Shown here: piece after piece, positions 2,150-58,280 of the stretch
How positions within the stretch are numbered: position 1 is the stretch's first letter
Layout: every line of letters starts with the position of its first letter
Assembly: GCF_030611305.1 (NCBI RefSeq)
Contig: NZ_JAUWQB010000012.1
Span: 1 to 58,280 of the forward strand
Length of the DNA: 58,280 nucleotides
From: Desulfobacula sp.
GTDB taxonomy: Bacteria; Desulfobacterota; Desulfobacteria; Desulfobacterales; Desulfobacteraceae
Direction of reading: 5' to 3'
The notes under the pieces: generated by a model
Databases searched by the model: none
Told to the model about the DNA's origin: nothing
The model's input: only the letters and a program-made list of their open reading frames with translations
Translations under genes and position numbers: made by a program

Positions 2150-2162
2150 TGAATCGTATTCA
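2150..2162. promoter_or_regulatory. Short palindrome, possible TetR operator
   Basis: TGAATCGTATTCA is a perfect 5-bp inverted repeat around CGT. It lies about 18 nt upstream of the TetR start, in the 230-nt divergent gap shared with the CoA-transferase gene. A TetR protein often binds such a site to control itself and its divergent neighbour. It is short and could be chance in AT-rich DNA. Confidence 0.3.
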
Positions 2163-2180
2163 AAAAATAATGAGGAACGT

Positions 2181-2810
2181 ATGGGTATATATGAACGCAA
2201 ACAAAGAGAAAAAGAGCAAAGGAAAATAGGGATTATCAATGCTGCACGAAAAGTTTTTTCCAATAAGGGGTTTAACACTGCTACAATTGAAGAGATTGCG
2301 ATGGAAGCAGAACTGAGTCCCGGGACTCTTTACTTGTATTTTAAGGGCAAAGAAGAATTACATACATCCCTTTCCATTGAAATATTGAAACACCTGGCAG
2401 ATGAGATTCAAAAAGTTGTAGGCCAGGATATTTCAGCGGAAGAAAAAATCAAAAGATTTTGTGATGTGTTTATCGATATGTATGAGTACGATTCAAATAT
2501 TTTAATCAATCTGTTTCACCTTCAATCCGGAGAAACGCTTAAGAATCTTTCAGATGAATTCTTACAGCAGATCAAAACACACTCAACCATGGCTCATGGG
2601 GCCATGGTTGATGTTATAAAAGAAGGGATTGACCAGGGTATTTTTATTGAAGAACATCCCGTGGTTCTTGCGGATATCCTATGGTCCTCCTATGCTGGTG
2701 TTGTCCTATGGGTTGATTCCAAAAGAGTTTTAAATAGTCAAAAGGATTTTGTCAAATCTACGTTAAAAACGGCATTTAAAATAATCCTTAAGGGGTTGAA
2801 GAAAAAATAA
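2181..2810 (+). CDS. TetR/AcrR family transcriptional regulator
   Basis: A 209-residue protein with an N-terminal TetR helix-turn-helix at about residues 15-60: AARKVFSNKGF, then TIEEIAMEAELSPGTLYLYFKGKEEL, which is the classic recognition-helix pattern ending in YxYFxxKEEL. The rest is a helical ligand-binding domain of ordinary length. ATGAGGAACGT before the ATG provides a Shine-Dalgarno site. It is divergent from the CoA-transferase/GNAT gene, and regulators of this class near acyl-CoA enzymes often sense fatty acids or acyl-CoA. That ligand assignment is inference. Confidence 0.9.
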   Translation: MGIYERKQREKEQRKIGIINAARKVFSNKGFNTATIEEIAMEAELSPGTLYLYFKGKEELHTSLSIEILKHLADEIQKVVGQDISAEEKIKRFCDVFIDMYEYDSNILINLFHLQSGETLKNLSDEFLQQIKTHSTMAHGAMVDVIKEGIDQGIFIEEHPVVLADILWSSYAGVVLWVDSKRVLNSQKDFVKSTLKTAFKIILKGLKKK

Positions 2811-2889
2811 TCCTATAACTAACATAAGTACCCGTTAGCATGGCTGCCCAAAGTGATTATGCAAAAAAATCCGGTCCTGTCTTATTACC

Positions 2890-42902: not shown

Positions 42903-43260
42903 GGGGGCGAAATGGCTTCGACGGAGATTTTGAAGTCTATGGTAGCATACCGAGTCTTTTGTCAGCTCGTAAACTTGGCAATACATAAACATAATCGCAG
43001 ATGATTATAATTACGCTGTAGCTGCGTAGAGCAGCTTCCGTCCTGCTGATATCCTTCTTGCAGATTTCAGGTCAGGGCGTCGACTTTGCAAGACCGCCTT
43101 TTAAGGGTGTCTGAACCTTAAAGGTTAAACTTTTCAGGCTATACTGTTTTGTATCCATCTCAAAGGAGACGTTACAGCAAAATTTAAATTTTGAGATAAG
43201 TATGTAGAAGCCTGGGGTGATCGTTTTCGGACGCGGGTTCAACTCCCGCCGCCTCCACCA
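42903..43260 (+). ncRNA. ssrA: Transfer-messenger RNA (tmRNA)
   Basis: A 358-nt one-piece tmRNA, which rescues stalled ribosomes. The 5' end GGGGGCGAAATGGCTTCGACG pairs with the 3' CGCCTCC that precedes ACCA. The T-arm has GCGGGTTCAACTCCCGC. The tag frame reads GCA GAT GAT TAT AAT TAC GCT GTA GCT GCG TAG, giving ADDYNYAVAA. The 3' end is the attachment site of the adjacent island. Confidence 0.96.
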
Positions 43261-43263
43261 ATT
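43236..43263 (+). other. attL: tmRNA 3' end copy of the island attachment site
   Basis: 28 nt (GGTTCAACTCCCGCC... through CCACCAATT) identical to 56623-56650. It includes the T-loop, the 3' T-stem strand, the acceptor strand and CCA of the intact tmRNA, a well-known target of tyrosine integrases. Confidence 0.85.
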
Positions 43264-43856
43264 TTTATTAATAAAATCAATAACTTACACAAATTTTTCA
43301 GATTTAACGCATTTCTTCAAAAAAATTACATCAAATTTTAGTTTAAAATCAAATAGTTACAAAATCATAAATTACCCACCTCGGTGGGTCAGATGTGGGT
43401 CAGGCAGCACCTTTCAAATTACCTGTAAATAATCACTTTTTCAGACAATCTTTATGTTTTTAAATGCGTGCTTCAGGGCCATTATGTGTTGGTCTGCGGA
43501 GTTAGATTATAAATTTTATTCTACAGCAATGTCCAAGGCTTATATATTTGGATTGAAAATTTTATTCAGGGAAAATCTCATGTACCATATGTTGGGGTGG
43601 TCGAAAATTTCAAGAACCAAGCCTTATGAATACATAAGCTCACCGACTGGATATGAATTATCATTACTGCTGGTAAAAATAGTCAACACTTTTTAAGGAC
43701 ATTCCCCGTTGCTTTAACACTGGGACTATACATGCCCTTGCTATTTTACTGCGATCTGTTTTATACAAAGTAAAATTAACGGCATTTAATTGAATTTTAA
43801 TTAGTTTATAATTATTTATTATAATTCAGGGCTGATTCTTAAAGACAGGATTAAAC
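43264..43856. other. Gene-poor left end of the island
   Basis: Nearly 600 nt with a palindrome (ACCCACC-TC-GGTGGGT, 43374-43389) and paired GTGGGTC repeats at 43384-43403. An open frame at 43454-43696 (80 codons) has no Shine-Dalgarno site and an unusual composition, so I do not call it. No integrase gene is present. Confidence 0.6.
43384..43403 (+). repeat. Paired GTGGGTC direct repeats near attL
   Basis: GTGGGTC occurs twice 11 nt apart, the second as GTGGGTCAG. The same arrangement with the same spacing occurs at 56567-56586 near attR. One helical turn between copies suggests protein binding, possibly integrase arm sites. Confidence 0.55.
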
Positions 43857-45452
43857 ATGACGAGCGATAACCGTTTGAACAAAGACATATCAATGAACTT
43901 TTCCGATCAGAATTTCAACAAATCAATAATTCCTGAAAGAGACGATCTCAACTGGAACCAACTCATTTTGGGCATGAAAAAGACAACCAAGGAATTTATC
44001 GAAAATGTCCTGGAAAACATCATAGAGTCCATCGTGATAACGGATTTGGACGGATACCTGGTCTATTTCAATAAATACTCGGAACAGATGTTTGAATTTA
44101 AGTCTCAGGAAGTGCTCAACCAGCACATCGCCATACTGGGGGGGAAAAACCCGAACGTCCTCCACCTCATTCGGGAAGGAAAAATTTTTAACGATGAAAT
44201 CACCCTTAAGACAAAATCCGGCAGACACTTTCCCGCCCATGTGAGGAATGTTCCCCTGAGGGATGACCAGGACAGGCCCGTCGCCATGGTCGGTGTGGCA
44301 AGGGACCTGACCAGAGAAAAGGAAAAACAGCGGATTGATGACAAAATGGCGCGTTTGAAAGAGTTTAACGAGAATCTTATTGAATCCCTGAACGACGGGA
44401 TTCAAATAATAAACTTTGAAGGCAATATTGAGTTTGTAAATAAACAATTGGCCAATGTTTTAGGGTATGAACCCGATGACTTGGTAGGAAAACACTATAC
44501 AAAAATTGTAACAATTGAAGACCGACCAATATTTCAAAATTTAATCGATTCGCCGACAGATTCCAAAGTAAAAGCTACTTTTGAAACCAGCTTTATTTCC
44601 AAATCCGGTAAAAAAATTCCTTTTTTTGTCGGGAGTTCACCTCTAAAAGGAAGACGGGTGTCGGGCATTGTAAATGCAGTAACGGATATCTCTGAAATTC
44701 AGAAATTAAAAGAAGAGTTGTTTCAGTCTGAAAAAATGTCTTTAATAGGAACTCTGGCCAGTGAAGTAGCGCATGAAATAAATAACCCACTTGGGGGACT
44801 GGTCATATCTGTCCAAATGCTTTTAGAGGATATTGAAAACGAAGAACTGGATCTTACAATGGCCAGAGAGGAACTTTTAGGGATTGAAAGCGATGCCCGC
44901 CGCTGCCGAAGCATAACAAGAAAATTACTTGATTTTTCACGTCGCAAGCCGGAGGGACGTGAACCCTTAAACTTTAATAAACTTATTGAAACCTCCCTTA
45001 TCTTTGTCCAGCGTCAGGCAGAAATTGAAAATATAAATTTCATCAAAAATTATTATGAAAATTTACCTCTGGTATGGGGAAACTCAAACAGCCTTCAACA
45101 GGTAATAATCAATCTCGTTAAAAACGCCTGTGATGCCATGCCAGCGGGAGGACAAATAATTATTACTACCGAAGTACTGGATATCGGAGAACAACATCCA
45201 TGGATCCGAATCTCTTTTGCAGATACCGGGCCTGGAATTTCCAGTGATCACATTGGCATGATTTTTGATTCTTTTTTTACAACCAAGGAGGGGGGCAAAG
45301 GAACCGGACTTGGACTTGCGGTTAGCAGGCGGATTGTTGAAGAACAGAGAGGTAAGCTGATCTTCGAAGATGTGAAAGGGAAAACTGGTGCTATTTTTCA
45401 CGTTTTACTTCCCAGTTTATCGGGTGATAAATCGGAGGACATTCATGACTGA
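43857..45452 (+). CDS. PAS-domain histidine kinase of the island
   Basis: A 531-residue soluble kinase. PAS domains lie at about 48-165 (ESIVITDLDGYLVYFNKYSEQMF) and 170-285 (GIQIINFEGNIEFVNKQLANVLGY). The phospho-His box is SEVAHEINNPLGG near 305 and the HATPase has NLVKNACDAMPAG, DTGPGI and GTGLGLAV. AGGA precedes the ATG. It overlaps by 8 nt the sigma-54 activator gene that follows, so the two form one two-component pair. The signal is probably the aromatic substrate or its CoA ester handled by the genes downstream. Confidence 0.92.
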   Translation: MTSDNRLNKDISMNFSDQNFNKSIIPERDDLNWNQLILGMKKTTKEFIENVLENIIESIVITDLDGYLVYFNKYSEQMFEFKSQEVLNQHIAILGGKNPNVLHLIREGKIFNDEITLKTKSGRHFPAHVRNVPLRDDQDRPVAMVGVARDLTREKEKQRIDDKMARLKEFNENLIESLNDGIQIINFEGNIEFVNKQLANVLGYEPDDLVGKHYTKIVTIEDRPIFQNLIDSPTDSKVKATFETSFISKSGKKIPFFVGSSPLKGRRVSGIVNAVTDISEIQKLKEELFQSEKMSLIGTLASEVAHEINNPLGGLVISVQMLLEDIENEELDLTMAREELLGIESDARRCRSITRKLLDFSRRKPEGREPLNFNKLIETSLIFVQRQAEIENINFIKNYYENLPLVWGNSNSLQQVIINLVKNACDAMPAGGQIIITTEVLDIGEQHPWIRISFADTGPGISSDHIGMIFDSFFTTKEGGKGTGLGLAVSRRIVEEQRGKLIFEDVKGKTGAIFHVLLPSLSGDKSEDIHD

Positions 45453-46854
45453 AAATTTCAAAGTTTTAATTGTAGATGATGAAGATTCCATTCGCAAACG
45501 TTGTATCCGGCTTTTATCCAGGCAGGGATATGCTGTTGTTGGTGCCGACAACAGTTCAACCGCTTTGAAACTGCTGCAAAATGAAAGAACAGGTTTCGAT
45601 CTATTGCTCGTGGATATCCGGATGCCCGGTATGGACGGCATACAGCTTTTGAAAAAAATCAAGACGCAAATGCAATCCATAGAAATCATAATCATGACAG
45701 GTTATGCCACAGTGGAAACTGCCATAAAAGCAATGAAATACGGTGCTTTTGATTATCTTACCAAACCCTTTGACAAAGATGAATTGTTGAACATAATCGA
45801 TAAAATTGTTGAAATAAAATCTTTGCAGCAAGAGGTCATAGAACTCAAGAGTCAACTGACAAAGACCAATGAAAAACAAATGGTCATTGGAAATTCTCCA
45901 GCCATGAATAAGGTCATGAGGATCATTGAAAAAGTTTCACCTGTAGACTCTAATATCCTGATCCAGGGCGAAAGCGGAACAGGAAAGGGGTTTGTTGCAA
46001 ATGCTATTCATGCTAAGAGTAAACGGAAAAAACAACCCTTTGTTGTGGCCGACTGTGCAGCATTATCCGATAATATATTAGAAAGTGAACTTTTCGGTCA
46101 CGTTAAAGGTGCTTATACCGGTGCACATACCGCCCGGGACGGATATTTTAAAAAAGCCAACAAAGGCACATTGTTTCTGGATGAAATTGGTGAAGTTCCT
46201 TTGAATTTGCAGGGAAAATTATTAAGGGCTGTTCAGGATCAGGCTTTTGTAAAATTAGGTTCCACAGAGGCCACTAAGGTTGATACCCGTATCATTGTCG
46301 CTACAAATCGCAATTTGGAAGAAATGGTTTCAAAGGGTGAGTTCAGAGAAGATCTGTTCTATCGCTTAAATGTCATTACATTGTCCTTGCCGGCTTTAAG
46401 AGAAAGGCGAGAGGATATCTCTCTACTGGCAAGGCATTTTCTGAAATGGTATACGGCAAAGCTCAATCTTAATCCGCTTTTTCTTCCAGATGAAGTTCTG
46501 GAAATTATTGTTTCCCATGACTGGCCGGGCAACATCAGGGAACTGGAAAATGCCATGCAGCGGGCCATTGTTCTGGCGGAAAATAAAACCTTGTCCATAG
46601 AAGGCCTGTTCCCGGCCCGGACTGAGAAAGACCCGGTTCGTTTTAATTATTCTGATCTCTTTAAAAAAAAAGCAAGCTATCAGGAAATTAAGCGGGAAGT
46701 TGTGAAAAATTTTACGAAACAATATCTGACCCAGTGCCTTATTTTCCATAAAGGCAATATCACAAACGCAGCAAAAGCCATGGGCATGCGCCGCACTTCT
46801 CTTCAAAGACTTGTAACTCAAACTGGTCTCGGCAGCCAATCATTTAAAAATTAG
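45445..46854 (+). CDS. NtrC-family sigma-54-dependent response regulator
   Basis: The 469-residue protein has three parts. Residues 1-120 form a receiver (VLIVDDEDS, phospho-Asp in LLVDIRMPGMDG, Lys in LTKPFD). The central AAA+ domain has GESGTGKGF and the sigma-54 contact motif GAYTGA (in KGAYTGAHTA). The C-terminus is a Fis-type helix-turn-helix (NITNAAKAMGMRRTSLQRLV). The frame opens at 45388, but CGGAGG lies before the ATG at 45445. It probably drives the sigma-54 promoter found 110 nt downstream of its stop, in front of the hydroxylase genes. Confidence 0.94.
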   Translation: MTENFKVLIVDDEDSIRKRCIRLLSRQGYAVVGADNSSTALKLLQNERTGFDLLLVDIRMPGMDGIQLLKKIKTQMQSIEIIIMTGYATVETAIKAMKYGAFDYLTKPFDKDELLNIIDKIVEIKSLQQEVIELKSQLTKTNEKQMVIGNSPAMNKVMRIIEKVSPVDSNILIQGESGTGKGFVANAIHAKSKRKKQPFVVADCAALSDNILESELFGHVKGAYTGAHTARDGYFKKANKGTLFLDEIGEVPLNLQGKLLRAVQDQAFVKLGSTEATKVDTRIIVATNRNLEEMVSKGEFREDLFYRLNVITLSLPALRERREDISLLARHFLKWYTAKLNLNPLFLPDEVLEIIVSHDWPGNIRELENAMQRAIVLAENKTLSIEGLFPARTEKDPVRFNYSDLFKKKASYQEIKREVVKNFTKQYLTQCLIFHKGNITNAAKAMGMRRTSLQRLVTQTGLGSQSFKN

Positions 46855-46873
46855 TAACCTAAAAAGAGGCGGT

Positions 46874-46896
46874 GGTGTTTCCGAAAAAGAGACACC
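46874..46896. promoter_or_regulatory. Possible upstream activator site
   Basis: GGTGTTTC and GAGACACC form an inverted repeat (7 of 8 positions) around a 7-nt spacer. It lies about 85 nt upstream of the -24 box, the usual range for binding of an NtrC-type activator. A second inverted repeat, AACCTGT (46931-46937) with ACAGGTT (46959-46965), is closer to the promoter. Confidence 0.4.
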
Positions 46897-46966
46897 TGTC
46901 GCTATTTTGGCACACTGCCGTCCTCAAAAAAACCTGTTTTTTTAGAGGGTTATGATAGACAGGTTG

Positions 46967-46984
46967 TTGGCATATCTTTTGCAT
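46967..46984 (+). promoter_or_regulatory. Sigma-54 (-24/-12) promoter of the hydroxylase operon
   Basis: TTGGCATATCTTTTGCAT has GG at 46969-46970 and GC at 46981-46982, exactly 10 nt apart, matching TGGCAC-N5-TTGC well. The predicted transcript start is about 40 nt before the first hydroxylase gene. A sigma-54 activator gene lies immediately upstream. Confidence 0.78.
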
Positions 46985-47034
46985 TTCCTTCAGTTAGTTT
47001 CTGAATAACCTATCCTGTAAATAGAGGAATTATT

Positions 47035-48042
47035 ATGTATTTACCAAAATTTACCCTTGAAAGCCCCAGATCAATAGAAGAAGCAGTGAGCCTTCTGGGT
47101 TCCGGTGAACAGACCAAGCTTTTGTCAGGTGGTACAGATCTTTTTCCAAGAATGAAATATAAACTTTGTTCTCCAGGGGTCCTTATAAGTCTGAAAGGTT
47201 TGCCGTCGTTCCCTCCTCAAATTGACGAAGAACGCAAATTGATCATAGATGCAAATATATCTTTGACCGCCATAACGCTCTCACCTGAAATTTTGGAAAA
47301 GGCTCCTTTATTAGCTCTGGCGGCTCAAAAAGTTGCCACTCGTGAAATCAGAAACATGGGAACTCTTGGTGGAAACATTTGCCAGGAAACTCGATGCCTT
47401 TACCTGAACCAAACTCATACGTTTCAATTTACAGAGCCTTGTTTGAAGCGCGGAGGCAAAGAATGCTATTTCGCCCCTAAAGGGAAAAAGTGCTGGGCCA
47501 CCTTTATGTCGGATATTGCGCCGACACTTTTTTGTCTCAATGCAAGTGTGATAGTTGCAGGCTTAGATGGTGAACAACAAATAAAAATCGAGGAAATTTA
47601 TACCAACGACTCCCTCAAACCTTTATCGCTAAAACCGGATCAAATTATCACAAAGATTATTGTACCGAAAACTCAAAGCCCGTCCGGGAATGGATTTGCA
47701 AAATTCACCGTAAGAAAGACCATTGAATTTGCAATTGTGAATGTCGGGGTTTTTTTAGAAACAGAAAAGGACCTCAAGACCTGTAAAAAGGCGAGAATTG
47801 CAGTGGGAGCAGTTTCTGAGGGGCCTCAGAGGGCACTGGAAGCAGAAGACTGGCTGGCAGGAAAAAGCTTGTCCAAAGAGAACATAAATAAAGTTTCACA
47901 AAAAGCTGCTAGTTCTTTAAAAATAATACCCCACCATGGGTATTCAAAAAAATATCTAACCGAGTGCTTGAAAATTCAATCAAAGCAGGCCCTCAATGAT
48001 GCTGTAGAAGGACTCGCTGATCAAAGTAACAGAGGGAGGTAA
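47035..48042 (+). CDS. 4-hydroxybenzoyl-CoA reductase-like beta subunit (FAD and extra 4Fe-4S)
   Basis: A 335-residue FAD subunit of the xanthine dehydrogenase family (LLSGGTDLFPRM near 30, RNMGTLGGNIC near 107). Between the FAD motifs it has cysteines C121, C136, C144 and C153. Their 15-8-9 spacing nearly matches the four ligands (122, 138, 146, 155) of the extra 4Fe-4S cluster in Thauera 4-hydroxybenzoyl-CoA reductase beta subunit. Ordinary xanthine or CO dehydrogenases lack these. The cluster is used to push electrons to the molybdenum site for reductive dehydroxylation. GAGGAATT precedes the ATG. First gene after the sigma-54 promoter; the exact CoA substrate is not proven. Confidence 0.85.
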   Translation: MYLPKFTLESPRSIEEAVSLLGSGEQTKLLSGGTDLFPRMKYKLCSPGVLISLKGLPSFPPQIDEERKLIIDANISLTAITLSPEILEKAPLLALAAQKVATREIRNMGTLGGNICQETRCLYLNQTHTFQFTEPCLKRGGKECYFAPKGKKCWATFMSDIAPTLFCLNASVIVAGLDGEQQIKIEEIYTNDSLKPLSLKPDQIITKIIVPKTQSPSGNGFAKFTVRKTIEFAIVNVGVFLETEKDLKTCKKARIAVGAVSEGPQRALEAEDWLAGKSLSKENINKVSQKAASSLKIIPHHGYSKKYLTECLKIQSKQALNDAVEGLADQSNRGR

Positions 48043-48044
48043 GT

Positions 48045-48536
48045 ATGACAACAACACAAAGAAAAAAAATCATTGGACTTACAGTTAACGAGGAAACTTA
48101 TGAGCTGGCAGTTGAGTGTCAGGAAACATTGTTGGACGTATTACGCAATAATTTGGGGTTAACGGGGACTAAAGAAGGATGCGGTACGGGTGAATGCGGC
48201 TCCTGCACCGTACTGCTGGAAGGAGAACCGATATTAGCCTGCCTGATGCTGGCAGTTGAATGCGAAAATAAAAAAATCGAAACCATTGAGGGACAATCTA
48301 TTAACGGTGATTTGACACCGGTCCAAGAAGCCTTTCTTGAAAAAGGGGCAGTACAATGCGGATTTTGTACACCTGGTATGGTGCTGGCCTCTACCGATCT
48401 TTTAAAAAGAAATCCTGATCCCAGCAAGGAAGATATCATGGAGAGCCTGGGGGGGCATCTATGCCGTTGTACGGGATACAATAAAATCATGGAGTTTGTG
48501 CATCATGCTGCAAAGCTGAATAGGGACAACACCTAA
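48045..48536 (+). CDS. 4-hydroxybenzoyl-CoA reductase-like gamma subunit (two 2Fe-2S)
   Basis: A 163-residue small subunit with both 2Fe-2S sites of the molybdenum hydroxylase family: the plant-ferredoxin-type site C46, C51, C54, C66 (EGCGTGECGSC, LACL) and the helical site C105, C108, C140, C142 (QCGFC, CRC). It passes electrons between ferredoxin or the FAD subunit and molybdenum. Its ATG is 2 nt after the beta stop with GGGAGG upstream; the alpha gene follows after 12 nt. Confidence 0.92.
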   Translation: MTTTQRKKIIGLTVNEETYELAVECQETLLDVLRNNLGLTGTKEGCGTGECGSCTVLLEGEPILACLMLAVECENKKIETIEGQSINGDLTPVQEAFLEKGAVQCGFCTPGMVLASTDLLKRNPDPSKEDIMESLGGHLCRCTGYNKIMEFVHHAAKLNRDNT

Positions 48537-48548
48537 AGGAGCACGAAA

Positions 48549-50876
48549 ATGAGTGAGTTGGATTATGTCGGAAAACGAATATTAAGAAAGGATGGTCCGG
48601 ACAAGGTCACAGGCAAAGCGATCTACACAGTTGATATACAACTAAAGGGACAGCTGGTTGGAAGGATACTCAGAAGCCCTCATGCCCATGCACGGATACT
48701 GGACATCGACATCAGTCTTGCCTTGGAGGTACCGGGTGTCAAAGCTGTGATCACTGGTAAAGATACTTTGGGCATTAAACATGGCTTTGTTGAAACACCT
48801 CGTTATCCAGCGGATCAATATCCCCTGGCAATGGACAAGGTTCGATTTATTGGTGAAGAAGTTGCTGCAGTGGCAGCTACCGATGTATATGCTGCAGATA
48901 AAGCTTTGAGTCTTATAAAAGTGACATATGAATCCCTGCCTGCGGTCTTTGATCCTGAAGAAGCCATGATACCGGGGGCACCGGAAATCCATCCCTCCCA
49001 TCCCAAAGTAAAGGAGGACCTGGTTAATATCGGAGGTAAAACTGCTTCGGGCTGGGGTGATGTGGAAGCAGGGTTTCAAGAAGCTGACTATGTGAGGGAG
49101 GACCGGTTTGAAAGCCATCTTCGGACCCACGGATTCCTTGAGCCCCACGCCACTGTAGCCAGTTTTGAGGCAGACGGAAAATTGAATGTGTGGACATCTT
49201 CACAGGGGCCGTTCATCAAACGGGCAAAGCTTGCCAAAACCCTGGGACTTCCACAGTCATCGGTAAGGGTGAAAAAAGCCTATGTCGGGGGTGCCTTTGG
49301 AGGGAAGATAGATCTATACACCCATGAATTCTGTGCAGCACTTCTCTCCATGAAAACGTCCAGACCCGTGGAAATCATTGCAACCCGTGAAGAAATATTC
49401 ACTGCTTATCGTCACGGTCAACCCATGATTGTCACGGTAAAAACCGGCGTTAAAAAAGACGGTACTATCGTGGCGCAGGAGTTCAAAACTATCAATAATT
49501 CCGGGGGCTATCGCGGTAGCGGCGTGGTAGTCATCTTTCTGGTGTGGGGGTTTGCAATGGCCCCCTATCGAATCCCCAACATGAAATATAAAGGATACTC
49601 GGTTTATACCAACAATCCGATTCGATCTCCACAAAGGGGGCATGGCGCACCCCAGATGCGATTTGCAGTGGAATCTCAACTGGACATGATTGCGGCTGAG
49701 CTGGGCATCAGCCCCATTGACATTCGTCTGAAAAATGCACGGGTTTCAGGTGAAATGCTTCCCAATGGAGATAATGTGCATAATTGCGGTCTCAAGGATT
49801 GCGTTCTGGATATTGCCAAACACACGGACTTTACAGCAAAATTCGGGATCAGCCGAACTGAAAAACAAGGACGGTACCGGAAAGGCATTGGCATTGGGGT
49901 CAGTGCCTACTTTGGGGGATCATTGATTTACCCCAATAGTTCATCAGTCATTGTAAAAATGAACGACGACGGAAGCGTATCCCTGCTGACGGGTTCCCTG
50001 GATATCGGACAGGGATCTGAAACCATACTGTGCCAGATTGTTGCAGAAGAACTTAAAATTCCCATAGAAGAGGTTCAAGTGTTTGCGGCCGATACTGAAA
50101 CCACACCCGTGGATATTGGGGTGTGGATCAGCGGGAATGCCTATGTAACAGGTAATGCAGCCCGTGAAGCGGCAGGCGATGTCCGCCGAAAACTCATGAC
50201 AATTGCTGCCGAAGAACTCAATGCCGACATTGAAAATTTGATATTCCAGAACAAACGCGTCTATATATCCGGCCAGCCGGAACGTTCATTATCATATGAA
50301 GAACTTGTGGCCTTAAGCATTCAGAAACACAGAGGGGATTCTGTCATTGGAAATGGGCATTGGCGTACTATGAGAGACGAACCTTTCCATCCGAGCCTTG
50401 CAACAACAAAGGGAAGATGGACTGAAAACTATGCCTTTGACGCCCAGACAGCCGAAGTGGAGGTGGATACTGAAACCGGGAACGTCCGTCTGCTGAAGGC
50501 CGTGACCGCTCATGACTGTGGATTTCCCATCAACCCCCTTCAGGTGGAAGGGCAAATTGACGGTCAGGTATCCATGGCCCTAGGTCACGCATTCATGGAA
50601 GAAATAATGATGGAAAAAGGTCGCACCTTGAATCCGAGCTGGCTGGATTACCGGATGCCCTCTATCTGTAACATTGCAGACTCAGAACACATCGACGTGA
50701 TTACGGAAAGGTACCAGGTCGGGAAACCTTACCGAACCAAGGAGGTTGGTGAAGGCTATGTATCAGCCATCCTTGCAGCAATTGCCAATGCCATTTACAA
50801 CGCCGTAGGTGTAAGACTTTTTTCAACACCGTTTACACCGGAAAAAATTTTAAAGGGTTTGGAGAAAATAAAATAG
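48549..50876 (+). CDS. 4-hydroxybenzoyl-CoA reductase-like alpha subunit (molybdenum)
   Basis: A 775-residue molybdopterin subunit of the xanthine dehydrogenase family. Cofactor motifs are VGGAFGGK (247-253), RGHGAPQMRFA where many relatives have RGFGAPQ, GSLDIGQGSET and GNAYVTGNAAREAAGD. The catalytic Glu is likely E735 in KEVGEGY. Length fits 4-hydroxybenzoyl-CoA reductase alpha (about 755-770). With the beta and gamma subunits it should reduce a hydroxyaryl-CoA to the dehydroxylated thioester, or hydroxylate in reverse. AAAGGAGCAC precedes the ATG. A different aromatic CoA substrate is possible. Confidence 0.88.
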   Translation: MSELDYVGKRILRKDGPDKVTGKAIYTVDIQLKGQLVGRILRSPHAHARILDIDISLALEVPGVKAVITGKDTLGIKHGFVETPRYPADQYPLAMDKVRFIGEEVAAVAATDVYAADKALSLIKVTYESLPAVFDPEEAMIPGAPEIHPSHPKVKEDLVNIGGKTASGWGDVEAGFQEADYVREDRFESHLRTHGFLEPHATVASFEADGKLNVWTSSQGPFIKRAKLAKTLGLPQSSVRVKKAYVGGAFGGKIDLYTHEFCAALLSMKTSRPVEIIATREEIFTAYRHGQPMIVTVKTGVKKDGTIVAQEFKTINNSGGYRGSGVVVIFLVWGFAMAPYRIPNMKYKGYSVYTNNPIRSPQRGHGAPQMRFAVESQLDMIAAELGISPIDIRLKNARVSGEMLPNGDNVHNCGLKDCVLDIAKHTDFTAKFGISRTEKQGRYRKGIGIGVSAYFGGSLIYPNSSSVIVKMNDDGSVSLLTGSLDIGQGSETILCQIVAEELKIPIEEVQVFAADTETTPVDIGVWISGNAYVTGNAAREAAGDVRRKLMTIAAEELNADIENLIFQNKRVYISGQPERSLSYEELVALSIQKHRGDSVIGNGHWRTMRDEPFHPSLATTKGRWTENYAFDAQTAEVEVDTETGNVRLLKAVTAHDCGFPINPLQVEGQIDGQVSMALGHAFMEEIMMEKGRTLNPSWLDYRMPSICNIADSEHIDVITERYQVGKPYRTKEVGEGYVSAILAAIANAIYNAVGVRLFSTPFTPEKILKGLEKIK

Positions 50877-50910
50877 ATATTTCCGCAAAAATCATAGAAG
50901 GGAGTCTAAC

Positions 50911-52230
50911 ATGGAACAGGTAATGTATTGGAACAAAGAACTGGAAACGATGCCTCGCAGGGAAAGAGAATCGCTGCAACTTGAACGGTTCAGGAAACGC
51001 ATGGCCTATGTTTATGATCGAAGCCCCATGTACAAAAAAAAATATGACCAGACAGGAATAAAACCTTCCGATATTAAAACGCTGTCAGATATCTCCAAGG
51101 TTCCGTTTACGGTTAAAGAAGAATTATTAGAAAGCCAAAAAAGAAACCCGCCATGGGGTGAAATGATCTGTGTCCCCCCGGAGGATGGTGTAAGGGTCTT
51201 TCAAACGACAGGGACAACAGGTACACCGCTTAAAGTAATGCTGAACAAAAAGGACTGGACAAAACATTATTATGAACAATTCATGTATTTCATGAATGCC
51301 TACGGTATCAAAAGGTCAGACATTCTCTATGTGCCTTTTGGCTATGGGCTCTATATTGCCTGGTGGGGATTCCAGGCCGCACTTGAACAAGCTGGCGTAA
51401 TGATTGTTCCGGGCGGTGCCCAGTCATCAAAGGACCGGGTGAAAAATATTTTCGAGTGGGACGCCACTGTGATCTGTGGCACTCCCACCTATCTTCTGCA
51501 CCTTGGTGAAGTCGCAAAAAACATGGGGATTTCTTTGGCCGACTCCCAGGTGGCAGTCGTCGTGGCTGCCGGAGAACCGGGAGCCAATATAGCGTCCACT
51601 AAAAAAGCCATCGAAGATACCTATGGCGCCAAATGCTACGACGATATAGGCTCCAGTGAGATCACCAATTTTGGTTTTGAATGTGCTGCCCAAAAGGGAA
51701 CCCACGTTAATGAAAATATGTTTTATGCGGAATGTCTGGATCTGGATACCCTTGAACCTGTGAAAGATGGCGAAGTGGGGGAACTGGTTCTCAGCAATCT
51801 GTGCACTGAAACCATGCCCCTTATCCGTTACCGCATAAAGGACCTGGTGAAGTTTAACCGGGAACTCTGTGAATGTGGTCGAAGTTTTTTAAGACTGGAC
51901 GGCGGCATCCTGGGAAGATCCGACGATATGTTTCAATTTGGTGGTGTGAATGTATTCCCTTCTGCCATAGAGAATCTCCTTCGAGAAGTGGACAATTTCT
52001 CAAATGAGTACCAGATTATTGTCCCCAAAAAGGATAGCAAAAAACGCATAAAAATCCGTGTGGAACCGTTATCGGCTCAAGTGTCCCAGAAAGATATGCA
52101 AGATTCGGTCGAGAAGTTCATCGAGGATTTCAAGTACAGGGTTACGTTTACACCGACTGTTGAAGTCGTTAAAGCAGGCGGGCTGCCACGATTTGAAGGA
52201 AAGGCCAAAAGATTGATACGTGAAACCTGA
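50911..52230 (+). CDS. Phenylacetate-CoA-ligase-family (PaaK-like) adenylate-forming CoA ligase
   Basis: A 439-residue enzyme of the short PaaK type, which activates an aryl acid to its CoA thioester with ATP. The phosphate-binding loop is TTGTTGTP (99-106), the aromatic-binding/adenylate motif is YDDIGSSEI near 240, the hinge region LIRYRIKDLVKF and the C-terminal catalytic lysine region GGLPRFEGKAKR near 428. It follows the hydroxylase by 34 nt, with AAGGGAG upstream. Context suggests it makes the CoA ester used by the reductase, for example 4-hydroxybenzoyl-CoA, but the substrate is inferred. Confidence 0.88.
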   Translation: MEQVMYWNKELETMPRRERESLQLERFRKRMAYVYDRSPMYKKKYDQTGIKPSDIKTLSDISKVPFTVKEELLESQKRNPPWGEMICVPPEDGVRVFQTTGTTGTPLKVMLNKKDWTKHYYEQFMYFMNAYGIKRSDILYVPFGYGLYIAWWGFQAALEQAGVMIVPGGAQSSKDRVKNIFEWDATVICGTPTYLLHLGEVAKNMGISLADSQVAVVVAAGEPGANIASTKKAIEDTYGAKCYDDIGSSEITNFGFECAAQKGTHVNENMFYAECLDLDTLEPVKDGEVGELVLSNLCTETMPLIRYRIKDLVKFNRELCECGRSFLRLDGGILGRSDDMFQFGGVNVFPSAIENLLREVDNFSNEYQIIVPKKDSKKRIKIRVEPLSAQVSQKDMQDSVEKFIEDFKYRVTFTPTVEVVKAGGLPRFEGKAKRLIRET

Positions 52231-52323
52231 AAATATAATTTATGAGTATGTTCAGCGCTTGGGGTGGATAATGGACACATGCCGTTATCCTGAATTTTTA
52301 TTCAACCATAAAAGGAGTAGAAA

Positions 52324-53409
52324 ATGAAAAAAAAATGTCTTTGCAGGATGTCAGGAATTAAATCGAGTTTAATAATAGTTTTCATAGGACTGGTGATATG
52401 TAGTTTTATATTGCCCACTGTTGCCTTTTCAGGAGATACGATTAATCTGACCTATAGTGGATTTATGCCTCCTACCCACGCACAGAGTAAACTTGAAGCA
52501 GCATGGTGCAAAGAGGTTGGTAAAAGGACAAACGGGCGGGTAAAGATTACACATTATTCCGGACAAACCCTGACCAAGGCCGCACAGAATTATCAGGGTG
52601 TAAAATCAGGCCTGTCGGATCTGGGATGTTCGGTCCTACAGTATACCCGGGGCCGGTTTCCTATGATGGACTTCATCAATCTACCTCTGGGGTACCCAAA
52701 TGGTCAGATCGCAACGGCAATTATTAATGAAGTATATGAAAAGTTTGCACCAAAAGAATTAGATGAAGTAAAGGTACTTTATCTTCATGCCCATGGGCCC
52801 GGATTCATACACACCAAAGACAAACCCGTCCATAAAATGGAAGATTTAAAAGGGCTTAAGATCCGTTCCCACGGTCCAACGGCCAGTATGGTTCAGGCGT
52901 TAGGCGGAACTCCAACTGCTTTTCCCATGAATGAATTGTATCAATCTCTCCAAAAAGGGGTTGTTCAGGCTGGATTGTATCCCCTGGAATCAAATAAGGG
53001 ATGGAAGATGGCGGAAGTTACGGATTATGTCATCGCCTGTTACCCTACAGCGTATTCTTTAGGATTTTTCGTAGTTATGAACAAAGACAAATGGAATGCA
53101 TTGCCTGAAAAGGATCAAAAAATAATTGAAGGAATCAATGGAGAATGGATTTTTAAACATGGAAAGACTTGGGAAGCCGGTGCCTTTGAAGGGATCAATT
53201 TTCTGCTTCAAGCGGGAAATTCCATGATTGGTATCGACCCCAAAGAAGCAAAAAGATGGAAGAAAGCATGCGAACCCGTGCTACAGGATTATATCGATCT
53301 AAATAATGAAAAAGGCCTGCCTGGAGAAGAAGTCCTTAAATATGTAGAAAAACGGTTGGCAGACAATGAAAAAGGAAAGTTTGAAAGCAATTACATGGAA
53401 AAAAAATAA
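52324..53409 (+). CDS. dctP: TRAP transporter substrate-binding protein DctP
   Basis: A 361-residue periplasmic binding protein with a signal peptide (hydrophobic about 14-33, ending TVAFSG). The TRAP P-subunit marks are YSGQTLTKAAQNYQGVKSG, the conserved KGLKIRSHGPTASM region with the carboxylate-binding Arg, and QKGVVQAGLYPLESNKGWKMAEV. It captures organic acids for the DctQM membrane unit. AAAGGAG is 8 nt before the ATG. It lies in the same run as the aryl-CoA ligase, so an aromatic acid is the likely cargo. Confidence 0.92.
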   Translation: MKKKCLCRMSGIKSSLIIVFIGLVICSFILPTVAFSGDTINLTYSGFMPPTHAQSKLEAAWCKEVGKRTNGRVKITHYSGQTLTKAAQNYQGVKSGLSDLGCSVLQYTRGRFPMMDFINLPLGYPNGQIATAIINEVYEKFAPKELDEVKVLYLHAHGPGFIHTKDKPVHKMEDLKGLKIRSHGPTASMVQALGGTPTAFPMNELYQSLQKGVVQAGLYPLESNKGWKMAEVTDYVIACYPTAYSLGFFVVMNKDKWNALPEKDQKIIEGINGEWIFKHGKTWEAGAFEGINFLLQAGNSMIGIDPKEAKRWKKACEPVLQDYIDLNNEKGLPGEEVLKYVEKRLADNEKGKFESNYMEKK

Positions 53410-53628
53410 CAGGAGTGCTTAAGGCTTTTAACCCCATGTATTTTAAACCATCATAATATAATTTCGGCGCAGAGTTTTAAGGTGACTGTACATTTTACTG
53501 ACACAGCACTTTTTTTCCCAGGATTGAATTGTCATGTCACTTTATGACTCTGCGGCTGTAAATATAAATCAAAAATATGCTTAAAAAAAATCAACAAAAA
53601 TATTGAATCTGTTCTCTGGAGATAAAAT

Positions 53629-54105
53629 ATGAAAATTGCAAAATGGCTGTCTGATATTCTCAAGAACGCGGGCGGTATATGTCTGATCGGTATGATGCTT
53701 TTAACGTGTGCAGATGTAGTGGGCAGCTTTTTTGGACATCCCCTTCTCGGATCTGAAGAATTAACCGGCATGGGTGCATTTCTACTGCTGGCATTTGCCC
53801 TGCCTTCCACAGAGATAGAAAAAGGGCATGTGGGAGTGGATCTTCTCCACATGATGTTGCCGCCGCGAATCAAGAGAATAAATGATTGCGCAGTCGCTTT
53901 TTTCTCGTTTGCCTTTTTCTGTCTTGTTACCTGGCAATGCTGGCTATATGCAGACGAAGTCGGTGAGGCCGGGCAAGTCTCCGCAACCCTTCAGTTTCCC
54001 ACTTTTTATCTCATATACGGCGTATCTTTTGCATGCGGAACCCTGGCGCTGGTTATATTTATTGAGCTGCTAACTCTATTAAAAGGAACGATCCCAAATG
54101 AGTGA
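53629..54105 (+). CDS. dctQ: TRAP transporter small membrane subunit DctQ
   Basis: A 158-residue protein with four transmembrane helices (about 14-33, 45-62, 85-104 and 128-150), typical of DctQ. DVVGSFFGHPLLGSEELTGM and FALPSTEIEKGHVGVDLL are family-type segments. GGAGAT precedes the ATG, and its stop overlaps the dctM ATG by 8 nt. A 219-nt gap separates it from dctP; I see no clear promoter or terminator in that gap. Confidence 0.92.
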   Translation: MKIAKWLSDILKNAGGICLIGMMLLTCADVVGSFFGHPLLGSEELTGMGAFLLLAFALPSTEIEKGHVGVDLLHMMLPPRIKRINDCAVAFFSFAFFCLVTWQCWLYADEVGEAGQVSATLQFPTFYLIYGVSFACGTLALVIFIELLTLLKGTIPNE

Positions 54106-55402
54106 ATACACTATCGTTGGCATCATCGGTATTTTTTTTCTGATTGCCATGCTTTTTTCCCGTATGGCGGTGGCTTATGTTATGGCCATAGTTGGTTTTA
54201 TCGGGTATTCTTACCTGACCAACCTGCAGGTTGGAATGCGACTTCTTTCAACTGATATTTTCAGTGTTTTCTCATCTTATGGTTTGACCCTGATACCCTT
54301 ATTCGTATTCATGGGATATATCGCTTTTTACTCGGGTTTAAGCAGTTCGCTGTATGATGTAGCTTACAAGCTTGTAGGAAGAGTCCGAGGGGGGCTTGCC
54401 ATGGCCACCGTAATGGCGTGTGCAGCATTTGGTGCGGTTTGCGGATCTGCTACGGCCACAACTGCTACTATGGGAACCATTGGTCTCCCGGAGATGGAAC
54501 GGTATAAATACGGCTCCGAACTTTCTACGGGTTGCATAGCTTCCGGAGGTGGTCTTGGGGCATTGATGCCACCCAGTGTGGTACTTATCATATACGGTAT
54601 TTTGACGGAACAGTCCATTGGAGCGTTGTTTATTGCAGGTGTTCTTCCTGCCATCTTTATGACCTTTTTATTTATGGTGGCCATCAGAATTTATTGTATA
54701 TTCAAACCAGAGCAGGGGCCCAAAGGTGAAAAGTTTACTGTCAAAGAGATGATTCTTTCATTGGGGAAACTCTGGGAAACCCTTGCCGTATTTCTGTTTG
54801 TCATGGGGGGGCTGATCACCGGTTTGTTTACACCGACAAAATCAGGTGCAGTCGGGGCCTTTGCCATCCTTATGATTGTCATGATCAGACGTAAGCTCTC
54901 CTGGGAGGATTTTAAAAATGCAATATACGGCACGCTTAAAATATCTTGTATGGTCATCATGCTTATTGCCGGCGCCACTATTTTTGGTCATTTTCTTGCG
55001 TTGACAAGAATTCCCCTTGAACTGGCCACTGCAGTCGGCACGCTCGACTTGCCGCCCTGGATTATCATCGGCCTGATTTGTTTTATCTATCTTCTGGGCG
55101 GATGCTTTATCGATTCGATGGCTTTGATCATGCTCACCATCCCTATTTTTTATCCCATTGTCGTCAATTTAGGATATGATCCTATCTGGTTTGGTATCAT
55201 TATTGTATTGGTTACCCATATGGGCATTATCACACCTCCTGTAGGTACCGCTGTCTATATTACAAAAGGGATCGCCAAAGATGTCCCCCTCGTAACTATC
55301 TTCAAGGGGTCTTTTCCATTCCTCCTGGCTTTAATTGTCGGTACGGCGGTAATGATCGCCTTCCCTGAAACTGTGACCTTTTTACCGAATTTAATAAATT
55401 GA
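54098..55402 (+). CDS. dctM: TRAP transporter large permease subunit DctM
   Basis: A 434-residue polytopic protein of the DctM/SiaM family that carries the sodium- or proton-coupled transport path. MATVMACAAFGAVCGSATATTATMG and GGGLGALMPPSVVLIIYG are diagnostic loops, repeated in inverted form as GGCFIDSMALIMLTIPIFYP and HMGIITPPVGTAVY. It overlaps dctQ by 8 nt and shares one base of its stop with the next small reading frame (TGATG). Confidence 0.94.
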   Translation: MSEYTIVGIIGIFFLIAMLFSRMAVAYVMAIVGFIGYSYLTNLQVGMRLLSTDIFSVFSSYGLTLIPLFVFMGYIAFYSGLSSSLYDVAYKLVGRVRGGLAMATVMACAAFGAVCGSATATTATMGTIGLPEMERYKYGSELSTGCIASGGGLGALMPPSVVLIIYGILTEQSIGALFIAGVLPAIFMTFLFMVAIRIYCIFKPEQGPKGEKFTVKEMILSLGKLWETLAVFLFVMGGLITGLFTPTKSGAVGAFAILMIVMIRRKLSWEDFKNAIYGTLKISCMVIMLIAGATIFGHFLALTRIPLELATAVGTLDLPPWIIIGLICFIYLLGGCFIDSMALIMLTIPIFYPIVVNLGYDPIWFGIIIVLVTHMGIITPPVGTAVYITKGIAKDVPLVTIFKGSFPFLLALIVGTAVMIAFPETVTFLPNLIN

Positions 55403-55527
55403 TGTTTATGGGGAAAGACCGTATGGAAAAAAATAAAGTCAAAAACACTTCAGGAACGGCTCTTACTCGTGAAACGACACGGGTCAAGAGGGACAAAAAA
55501 GGGCAACTGCAAAAGACAATTTCATAG
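55402..55527 (+). CDS. Possible 41-residue basic protein coupled to dctM
   Basis: An ORF whose ATG overlaps the dctM stop in a TGATG arrangement. The product is short, basic and polar (lysine, arginine and threonine rich) with no membrane helix. It ends 17 nt before the next gene. No strong Shine-Dalgarno site is seen, but translational coupling is possible. I recognise no family. Confidence 0.35.
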   Translation: MFMGKDRMEKNKVKNTSGTALTRETTRVKRDKKGQLQKTIS

Positions 55528-55544
55528 TTTGAAGGAGAGATGAG

Positions 55545-56042
55545 ATGGACACCAGAAAGTTACTTGAGGGGAAAAAAATTCTCATCGTTGATGATGAACC
55601 CGATGTGATCGATTCATTAATTGAACTATTGAGTTCATGTAAAATAGACACGGCATCATCTTATGATGAAGGTAAACATATGCTGGAAAACCAGCATTAT
55701 GACATGACGGTTCTGGATATTATGGGAGTAAATGGATTTGAGTTACTTAAGATCGCAAATAACCAGGGAATTCCTGCATTTATGCTCACGGCGAATGCAT
55801 TAACAGAAGAGAGTCTTGAGAAATCAATCAATTCCGGAGCAGTCTATTTTGCACCCAAAGAAAAAATGATTGATATTGACGTTCTTATTGCCGATGTATT
55901 TGAATCTCTGGATAATAAAAAAAATCCATGGGAAAAATTGTTAGAAAGACTGGGCGGGTTTTATGACAGGAAATTTAAGGGACAAAACTGGAGAGAGCAG
56001 GAGGACAAGTTTTTAAAAAATCACATGAATAAATTTTATTGA
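55545..56042 (+). CDS. Receiver-domain response regulator of the island
   Basis: A 165-residue protein with a receiver domain at 10-125 (ILIVDDEPD, phospho-Asp in VLDIMGVNG, Thr in MLTANA, Lys in FAPKEK) and a 40-residue C-terminal tail (WEKLLERLGGFYDRKF...NHMNKFY) that is not a known DNA-binding domain. GAAGGAGAGA precedes the ATG. It ends the catabolic gene run of the island. It may modulate the island kinase or transporter; the partner is unknown. Confidence 0.88.
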   Translation: MDTRKLLEGKKILIVDDEPDVIDSLIELLSSCKIDTASSYDEGKHMLENQHYDMTVLDIMGVNGFELLKIANNQGIPAFMLTANALTEESLEKSINSGAVYFAPKEKMIDIDVLIADVFESLDNKKNPWEKLLERLGGFYDRKFKGQNWREQEDKFLKNHMNKFY

Positions 56043-56566
56043 ATTTTAATAATATTAACACGGTGGGAATATGTACAATTGTTTTAAGGTCGTATGAAAA
56101 GCCTATCCTTTAATCACACAATTTTTTACTAGGCAGCGAGATTAAGTTAAAAAAATATTCGATATGTAAAACTTTATGATATCGATTTTTTATCAACTGA
56201 TTTTTTTTAGAAAAATCCGGCTGGTAAAAATATTAATGTTGATCGGCATTCACCCATGGGTGGGGACTGTAACGAATCTTGCATAGTTTGCAATTTCTTA
56301 TTATCATAGCATGCTTTATGGTATAAACGTTGACTGTCAAGATTTTTGAAATGGGCAGGACTGGATGATCCATTGTTGGGGGTTCAACCGAAATCACGGG
56401 CTAAGCACTATAACGTGTAAAGCTTTCTTGCTAATAATTTTTCATGATACAAGATATTGTATTAGAATCTTTTCTCCAAGATTCAAGATCCTATTATATT
56501 TTGGAATTGAAGATCAGACTATCATAGAATAGGGGAGGGTGCTTTAACAAAAATAAAGACTGCTGT

Positions 56567-56586
56567 GTGGGTCGCTGGTGGGTCAG
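56567..56586 (+). repeat. Paired GTGGGTC direct repeats near attR
   Basis: GTGGGTC-GCTG-GTGGGTCAG; the same 11-nt spacing and orientation as at 43384-43403. The two 20-nt blocks differ only within the 4-nt spacer. It lies 37 nt before attR. Confidence 0.55.
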
Positions 56587-56622
56587 ACCACTGAAGACCC
56601 TTGACTATCGTGGTGGAACACA

Positions 56623-56650
56623 GGTTCAACTCCCGCCGCCTCCACCAATT
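56623..56650 (+). other. attR: second 28-bp copy of the tmRNA 3' end
   Basis: Identical to 43236-43263 over 28 nt, then the flanks diverge. Only the 3' end is repeated, so this is not a second tmRNA. It marks the far end of a 13.4-kb integrated segment. Confidence 0.85.
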
Positions 56651-56740
56651 ATTTCTTTTAATTTCAATTAGTTATTCTTGATACAGCCATCTGTATGGTG
56701 GTGTAATAATTTCATGTGTCTTTATCAATTTTTTTCCACT

Positions 56741-58165
56741 TTATTCATTGATAAATTCCATCTTTTTTAAATTTGGAATAATGTGACCAAACCTATCGCT
56801 ATTTGATAGATTGGTAAGAATGACCTCCTCTGATAATCCTATTTCTTTAAACAAAAACAAAGAAAGTAGTATCATTAATAACTGATTTGTATAAACCAAA
56901 TCAGTCCCACTGATTATTTTATTTTTCATAGCGGAATCATAATGTGTAAAAAAGTTTCGAGTATCCACCATTTTATCTCTAATTATATTAGCCTTTGGAA
57001 GGATTTTATCTTTTGTCTCTTGATTTAAACTTTCAAATAAATTCTTAATTCGTTTTCGCAGTGAGTACTCATTTCCGTATTTTAATCGACTTTTAAGACT
57101 CTGTTTTAAATCATCAGGAAGATCAGTTGGGATTGCATTTTTAATGGATTCACAAGATGTATCATAATCATCTTGATCGATATAATGACCATTTCCTAAA
57201 CTTCGATGATAAGCTTCGAGAGCTTGCATTAATGTTAAAAAACTATATTCAAGATATATATTTTTATTAAAAATATTCCCAAAGAGTAAATTTAAAACAG
57301 ATTCGAATGAGTCATAGAGAGTATACCACTTGTTCAATATAGTAGCTAAATTGTCATATATCGAGGGTAAATTAAATATAATATTGTTAGTGTTTACTTT
57401 TTTCGATGTAGTGTCATGATATTCTGTAAAAAATAGCTGGATTGGTTCTTTTTTTATCTCTCCTGAAGAATTTTTTGTTTCAATGAATAGATATATTATT
57501 CTTTCAAAAATTGGATTCCCAATAAATAAGGTTAATAATTCTCGTAAAATAAAAATATTCTTTAAAAACCATTTGTATCCTTTATTTTTTTTAGGGCTGA
57601 TTTTTAAAAAGGTGAGATGCTCCCACCTAAGATATCGATGCTTATCGTAACTTTGAGTGAAAGAAAAATCAGATGAAATTTTAGCATCAATACATGGGAC
57701 ATTACATTCAAAATTTATAGGTTTTGAGTATTTTGCAGTCATGTCACAGATTTTTTTTTCAACTATAACGTGCTCATAATCAAAAGGTATTATGTTTATC
57801 CACTCTTCTAAATTAGTAAAATTGACTATTGCAGAAAAAAAGGTGAAGAGCTCATCTTCAAAATGTAAACCTACAAAAAGAAACTCAGCTGTGTACATAG
57901 TTGTGTGAAAGCCAGGAACATTTAAGTTTGTTCCAGCTTGATTACACATTAATAATGTGCAAATTTTACCTTCTGTAGTTAGACCATAGATGATTTTATG
58001 ATTAATAGGGGCATTAAACGCAGTAGCAATATCATGGAAAGAACCTAAAAGATTAAGCTGTATCTCTTTGTTATTTCCAAATGAAATAGACCCAGAAATT
58101 TTATTTTCGGGAGTTTTTGGTAACCACCATTTCCCTTTCCATTCGAAGCCATCTAATAAAGTAAT
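56741..58165 (-). CDS. ApeA-like HEPN-domain protein, no standard start codon
   Basis: An open frame runs from 58174 (after an in-frame TAA) to the stop at 56741, about 475 residues, the size expected for ApeA. The first ATG is only at 57949, yet the 75 codons before it are clearly coding (DGFEWKGKWWLP, GSISFGNNKEIQLNL, IIYGLTTEGKICTLL), matching the ApeA N-terminal domain pattern. None of them is ATG, GTG or TTG; an ATT at 58165 fits best. The C-terminal HEPN domain has ALEAYHR and the RNase motif RNFFTH in VDTRNFFTHYD. ApeA is a phage-defence protein thought to act as an RNase. It is either initiated at a rare codon or 5'-truncated. Confidence 0.7.
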   Translation of the reverse strand: MTLLDGFEWKGKWWLPKTPENKISGSISFGNNKEIQLNLLGSFHDIATAFNAPINHKIIYGLTTEGKICTLLMCNQAGTNLNVPGFHTTMYTAEFLFVGLHFEDELFTFFSAIVNFTNLEEWINIIPFDYEHVIVEKKICDMTAKYSKPINFECNVPCIDAKISSDFSFTQSYDKHRYLRWEHLTFLKISPKKNKGYKWFLKNIFILRELLTLFIGNPIFERIIYLFIETKNSSGEIKKEPIQLFFTEYHDTTSKKVNTNNIIFNLPSIYDNLATILNKWYTLYDSFESVLNLLFGNIFNKNIYLEYSFLTLMQALEAYHRSLGNGHYIDQDDYDTSCESIKNAIPTDLPDDLKQSLKSRLKYGNEYSLRKRIKNLFESLNQETKDKILPKANIIRDKMVDTRNFFTHYDSAMKNKIISGTDLVYTNQLLMILLSLFLFKEIGLSEEVILTNLSNSDRFGHIIPNLKKMEFINE

Positions 58166-58180
58166 TGTTTTAAATTAAAC

Positions 58181-58197
58181 CTCGGGCTATGCCCGAG
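58181..58197. repeat. Short GC-rich hairpin upstream of the HEPN gene
   Basis: CTCGGGC-TAT-GCCCGAG, a perfect 7-bp stem with a 3-nt loop, 7 nt upstream of the first in-frame codon of the HEPN gene. On the minus strand it could end an upstream transcript. The remaining 80 nt to the window end contain nothing I can name. Confidence 0.5.
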
Positions 58198-58280
58198 CGA
58201 CCCTAAAAGGTTTTACCGTTCCGGCGTGGAAAAAATGTGATAAAGGTTCTTCCCCGGGAAAGCTCCAAAGGGAGAAGAGA

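Follow-up and report, generated by a model that had tools for sequence, protein, structure and literature searches.

Cis-mobilizable elements (CIMEs) of Streptococcus thermophilus are flanked by attachment (att) sites, lack an integrase and lie in tandem with other elements at one site; by definition they derive from integrative and conjugative elements or integrative and mobilizable elements, and are mobilised by a resident one. In Dehalococcoides, 15 islands that lack integration modules are reported at ssrA, the gene for transfer-messenger RNA (tmRNA), and for them cis-mobilizable elements and accretion were proposed (PMC3146451). Here we describe a 13.4-kb element, E1 (positions 43236-56650), at the 3′ end of the tmRNA gene in a 58,280-nt stretch of Desulfobacula DNA, hereafter the window. 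Its sequence leads us to consider, with good confidence, that E1 is an integrase-less, att-flanked, CIME-like tmRNA island standing in tandem with a second element, E2, in a decaying array.

E1 shares with the S. thermophilus elements its att flanks, the missing integrase and the tandem arrangement, a likeness that lies in the sequence. Att sites are found at both of its ends, as cores with matched arms, and no integrase or transfer gene is among the Pfam hits of its 10 main open reading frames (ORFs). Its att layout is that of phage-like elements, and no conjugation gene was seen. The same 25-nt core, one motif in both arms and an 11-bp spacing also characterize tmRNA-targeting phages (the element of genome G002 and the IMG/VR contigs L183, of filamentous type, and L187). 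These differ in having an integrase together with Zot/pI (G002, L183), pIV (L183) or holin, endolysin and Sak4 (L187), none of which was seen in E1 by Pfam. Like the tRNA and tmRNA islands of Islander, E1 has ends marked by a regenerated target gene and a displaced fragment, but such islands normally carry their own integrase (PMC4383910). The closest parallel is with the Dehalococcoides islands, some of which likewise lack an integration module and carry accessory metabolic genes; there a CcrB-like serine recombinase and a 20-bp repeat are involved (PMC3146451). In the present case the integrases of relatives are of the tyrosine type, and the island carries an aromatic-acid cassette. We found no report of this island in a search of the open-access literature. 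E1 clearly exemplifies an established type of hitch-hiking island; new are the host, the recombinase class, the cargo and a repeat rule that pairs the ends. Tandem build-up at tmRNA, known for serine-recombinase dehalogenation islands, would extend to a genus of sulfate reducers in which the integrases are of the tyrosine type and the cassette is one for an aromatic acid.

The window is contig C156 of the source draft genome (G000; 159 contigs, 3,571,941 bases, 97.4% complete, 1.6% contaminated). Two metagenome-assembled genomes, G008 and G025, belong to the same genus, and the tmRNA of the window is matched by 46 of 58 genomes, G000 counted. The insertion site comprises the following features (window coordinates, strand, description).

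42903-43260, +: tmRNA gene (ssrA), intact, called by ARAGORN; tag ADDYNYAVAA; its last 25 nt are the left att core
43236-43263, +: core copy 1, 28 nt, exact repeat
56623-56650, +: core copy 2, 28 nt, exact repeat; probable junction of E1 and the next element

A first-pass annotation, made by a model from the letters alone, had reported an exact 28-bp copy of the tmRNA 3′ end 13.4 kb away from an undamaged tmRNA gene. Both statements hold: ARAGORN calls the gene intact, and positions 43236-43263 and 56623-56650 are identical over 28 nt at a spacing of 13,387. An ungapped alignment extended around the two cores covers 68 nt at 78% identity. By our own arithmetic about 2e-8 exact 28-nt pairs are expected by chance in 58 kb. 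A draft of 159 contigs leaves some room for a chance repeat or a misassembly, but the 28 exact nucleotides cover the CCA end of the tmRNA and matched arms adjoin them, so we regard this explanation as scarcely credible. The core is present at just two places in G000 (at most 2 mismatches in 25 nt, or at most 3 in 21 nt). An intact tmRNA gene and a displaced copy of its 3′ end are thus in place, as in other genomic islands, and a relative offers a vacant site: in G020 the site looks empty, with an RF-1 gene beginning 17 nt past the tmRNA CCA. The island's own integrase gene is missing from its interior. The proposal of an island in the tmRNA 3′ end is therefore upheld by the matching end repeats, the empty-looking site of G020 and the presence of cassette parts elsewhere in G025 and G008. 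Same-place relatives with the same genes and no second copy, which the annotation had named as counter-evidence, did not occur in the genomes searched.

Beyond the cores, the two ends of E1 are paired by arm repeats.

43264-43348, +: extra stretch between the core and the E1 arm (72-nt shift); tentatively the stub of an older element
43384-43403, +: E1 left arm, GTGGGTCAG at 43384 and 43395, spacing 11 bp
56567-56586, +: E1 right arm, GTGGGTC / GTGGGTCAG, at 56567 and 56578, spacing 11 bp; 56 nt left of the core

We scanned the tmRNA 3′ flanks of at least 100 nt (n = 27, G000 included; the shorter flanks of G022, G028 and G050 were left out) for direct repeats spaced 10-13 bp, with 20,000 low-GC windows as controls. 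Repeats of at least 7 nt were found in 11 of the 27 flanks compared with 6.7% of control windows, at a spacing of 11 bp in ten flanks and 12 bp in one; the composition filter scored G034 as 0, though GGTGGTGTAA / GGTGGTGTGA can be read in its flank. The repeat starts 42-64 nt past the CCA in ten flanks and 124 nt past it in the window, and the motif varies by genome (GTTGTTCGGTC, GGTGGTGTAA, CTGGTAGAAT, GTGGATCAC and others). Left of distal or internal cores (G002, G005, contig C549 of G021 and the window), a 5-7-nt repeat at spacing 11 starts 55-56 nt from the core in four out of four cases; those of G002 and G021 C549 measure just 5 nt, a size also attained in 32% of control windows. Left and right motifs match in G002, G005 and the IMG/VR contigs L183, L186, L187 and L194, and differ on either side of the core of G021 C549.

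The arms of E1 have 11 nt in common, which none of 342 mismatched end pairs reach (13 of 342 reach 8); the segment compared for the E1 left arm was shifted 72 nt to the right relative to the others and was set after the repeat was known. At least 8 nt are shared by 8 of 19 matched end pairs, in a comparison that omits three IMG/VR places whose left side is tmRNA-like and in which several of the kept IMG/VR places are probably tmRNA 3′ ends of other taxa. The pattern GTGGGTCnnnnGTGGGTCAG occurs at two places in G000 (43384 and 56567, the ends of E1), and a search of 85 other family genomes did not find it; because it was derived from these two ends, only its absence elsewhere counts as a test. 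Paired repeats spaced by 11 bp fit the arm-type sites of a tyrosine integrase. Since the same 11-bp-spaced pair stands at both copies, the best reading is that these bound a single element, E1. As a rule, one motif for an element's two ends and a change of motif across a tandem junction would pair ends and split arrays despite missing integrases and broken contigs.

In the extra stretch, the motif TCAATAACTTA lies at 43277 and a second one, TCAAATAGTTA, at 43349, and 30 nt from 43264 onward are 90% identical to the tmRNA flank of G008; tentatively, positions 43264-43348 may be the stub of an older, deleted element. Further in, about 108 nt within 43527-43645 are 71-72% identical to spots on contigs C144 and C65 of the same genome, a small dispersed repeat.

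The absence of a recombinase between the copies, also noted in the first-pass annotation, was confirmed: the Pfam scan of the 10 main ORFs gave none, a search for PF00589 across G000 gave 19 matches of which 0 fell on the window contig, and tblastn was run between the copies with relatives' integrases and all long ORFs of the G000 integrase loci. Three tblastn matches (25-37 amino acids (aa), E 0.006-0.010) were considered as integrase remnants and taken as chance. In G002, G021 (C410 and C549) and G005, an antisense integrase gene lies just inside the core; its stop codon starts 20 nt past the CCA (for G021 C549 counted by hand from the reading frame) and its 3′ end overlaps the repeats, the G005 gene being truncated by a contig end. 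The G002 integrase matches phrog_1 (E 7e-11) and had no tblastn match in the phage collection; neither it nor that of G021 C410 had a Pfam match at 1e-3. At the corresponding position the window frame reads LPDPHLTHRGG and is closed on both sides; it resembles DPHVIH of G005 because the repeats are similar. We infer that the integrase was lost rather than never present.

Two side observations concern other integrase loci. Contig C81 of G000 (L045) carries TGGGTCA twice at a 12-bp spacing near an integrase match, with no tmRNA core there. In G034 (L074, contig C3, 4583-7011 in tmRNA orientation), two integrase genes near one tmRNA both lack, in translation, the same middle part, with N- and C-terminal segments fused.

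To the right of copy 2, the flank is of element type.

56651-56710, +: E2 left arm, TCAATTAGTTA, single GGTGGTGTAA
56741-57949, −: ApeA-like gene (HEPN_Apea, ApeA_NTD1; PADLOC PDC-S58, Cas13-ApeA)
58160-58280, +: IS200-like element, 5′ end, at the contig end

The E2 arm holds no 11-bp-spaced repeat of at least 7 nt; its motif GGTGGTGTAA is present in two copies at the G024 tmRNA and, in a form with one change, at the G034 tmRNA. The ApeA-like gene scores above cut-off for HEPN_Apea (104.6 bits) and ApeA_NTD1 (71.2 bits). As listed, its ORF first matches the profile at position 65, and the frame is open rightward to the IS200 copy (56741-58165), so the listed start is merely the first start codon; the IS200 copy may have cut the 5′ end of the gene. 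Compared with 12 other genomes, 56648-58150 had one match, of about 50 nt in G001 (E 8e-4). Copy 2 could in principle be the chromosomal end of a single island, being the last core seen in the assembly, but its right flank holds an element-type arm and the ApeA-like gene and not the RF-1 gene of G020, which in G000 is on contig C70; we find this very improbable. Copy 2 is best read, from the sequence, as the junction of E1 and E2 and not as the far end of the array.

The window contig ends in the 5′ part of an IS200-like element, and C70 (8,050 bases) starts in the 3′ part of such an element; an intact copy, with Y1_Tnp, is on C136. A gene of the RF-1-domain type follows the tmRNA by about 6-8 kb in G025, G016 and G034, and in G012 the next gene along from it does so at that distance; in G000 the RF-1 domain gene (78.3 bits) and its neighbour are on C70. 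The order C156-IS200-C70 is thus the probable one. It would place to the right of position 58280, by synteny, the integrase gene that the first-pass annotation suggested seeking there: C70 carries one at 2094-3311 (PF00589, 28.7 bits; cut-off 27.1), along with a transposase-like gene. A broken integrase at the G034 tmRNA is in two segments, to which the C70 integrase shows identities of 60% (92 aa) and 77.5% (120 aa); its identity to the G002 integrase is 38%. Since G034 has the motif of E2, the C70 integrase fits E2 better than E1. Of the three states offered for E1 in the annotation, a decayed element fits the integrase missing at the relatives' position, and a larger array continuing past the window fits E2 starting at copy 2 and the integrase on C70; mobilisation in trans is possible.

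As an aside on synteny, genes found upstream of the tmRNA in G003, G005 and G014 are downstream and inverted in G007 (L066, contig C1, 8267-10503 in tmRNA orientation), a rearrangement.

The interior of E1 is taken up by the cargo cassette.

43857-45452, +: PAS histidine kinase (Pfam)
45388-46854, +: sigma-54 activator response regulator (Pfam), start codon uncertain
47035-48042, +: FAD subunit, like the beta subunit of 4-hydroxybenzoyl-CoA reductase, extra cysteines conserved
48045-48536, +: [2Fe-2S] subunit
48549-50876, +: molybdenum (Mo) subunit, best solved match 1rm6_A
50911-52230, +: PaaK-like CoA ligase
52324-55402, +: TRAP transporter, DctP, DctQ and DctM
55545-56042, +: small response regulator (Pfam)

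The top solved-structure match of both the FAD subunit (E 7e-33) and the Mo subunit (E 2e-126) is 1rm6, 4-hydroxybenzoyl-CoA reductase, and the locus has the three subunits of that enzyme, with a beta subunit carrying the extra cysteines of 1rm6_B, which we take to serve a [4Fe-4S] cluster. All three subunits score under the NCBIfam equivalog cut-offs (alpha 644.8 of 994.55, beta 194.3 of 404.55, gamma 184.1 of 257.8 bits). The cassette would serve, under regulation, to import a putative aromatic-acid substrate, activate it with CoA and dehydroxylate it reductively. It had been called a complete catabolic cassette with its own regulators; the regulators are there, but completeness goes too far, with uptake, activation and one reduction step seen.

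Parts of the cassette recur elsewhere. G025 holds two pieces at 95% DNA identity (window 43701-44737 on its C112 and 48612-56091 on its C92, with contigs breaking between them), and G008 matches window 43792-50882 at 88% on its C6; in both genomes these contigs differ from the tmRNA contig. No core with at most 6 mismatches is on the G025 cassette contigs, and the G008 stretch has one weak match (6 mismatches). The 28 GTDB loci that have a Mo-subunit relative commonly hold FAD-FeS-Mo sets, often with the ligase alongside, and many of these loci are cut short. Matches of at least 35% to both kinase and sigma-54 regulator occur at two of the 28 (L149, which is G008, and L151), and to the TRAP transporter at one (L150, which is G025). 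None of the 28 has a core with at most 5 mismatches, many ending at contig ends. Since it is found at several loci, the cassette is an accessory block. The string TTTTAAGG, a short AT-rich match, lies near both ends of the homology with G025; we do not claim the cassette as a transposon.

These findings also suit a dead E1: a leftover prophage att frame that can no longer be excised and is fixed in place, the cassette having arrived in it by another route such as illegitimate recombination or transposition. The homology with the G025 cassette stops at 43701 and 56091, inside the att arms, the cassette occurs at other loci without cores there, the integrase is gone and the left arm is displaced by 72 nt. 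Both cores and arms are nevertheless well preserved, and the genome encodes an integrase of the broad family, which probably belongs to this array. The case for a dead E1 seems to us evenly balanced, and it is compatible with the decaying CIME-like island, not exclusive of it.

For the CIME-like island, site-specific recombination of the kind used by tmRNA-targeting phages of these bacteria would have brought E1 into the 3′ end of ssrA, where it would have retained its two att cores and the arm repeats at either end, without an integrase gene. It would now stand in tandem with E2, an integrase of the same broad family lying farther right, past the IS200 copy at the contig break. Several observations weigh against this account. 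The left arm is 72 nt farther from the core than in relatives, and 11 of the 19 matched end pairs share 4-7 nt. No third core, which the first-pass annotation proposed to look for, was found in the G000 assembly at the mismatch limits given above. In G025, the closest relative, a terminator and other DNA follow the tmRNA, which is not a clean empty site. The IS200 link is not unique, its 5′ part being at five contig ends and its 3′ part at four, so the C156-C70 join rests on synteny too. Finally, LPDPHLTHRGG is encoded by the arm repeat itself and hence is weak evidence of a lost integrase.

Whether E1 can still move is a separate matter. A working cis-mobilizable element, moved in trans or by accretion, would explain the intact cores and matched arms, and further elements and an integrase are in the same array. 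On the other hand, the C70 integrase suits the motif of E2 better, the left arm is displaced, and a pattern search of the 86 family genomes turned up no helper integrase with GTGGGTC arms. We therefore regard a working E1 as plausible but somewhat doubtful, and hold its remaining CIME-like mobility, in trans or by accretion, to be similarly tentative. More speculative still, and in our judgement unlikely, is the idea that Desulfobacula and its kin have, at their tmRNA, a wider class of att-only passenger islands, which integrases of small tmRNA phages would move in trans, the paired 11-bp arm repeats serving as an address to a helper of the same motif. If this were true, a catabolic cassette would travel in a phage att frame without any phage gene.

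A few minor observations touch on these elements. In G001 (L067, contig C101, 580-4184), right after the tmRNA, there is an element-type flank with an SBF-family transporter resembling the ACR3 arsenite pump and ArsR-like regulators; the search gave no integrase-family match in G001, and these arsenic-type genes are possibly a second integrase-less passenger. IMG/VR contig L183 (IMGVR_UViG_3300013138_000285), an 11.6-kb viral sequence with a tmRNA core at both ends, an integrase, and Zot-like and pIV-like genes, looks like a filamentous phage targeting tmRNA. On contig C6 of G008 (L130, 17-877), one ORF, read from translations, seems to be a fusion of a response-regulator receiver with a swivelling domain like that of phosphoenolpyruvate synthase; a UbiD-like gene lies next to it.

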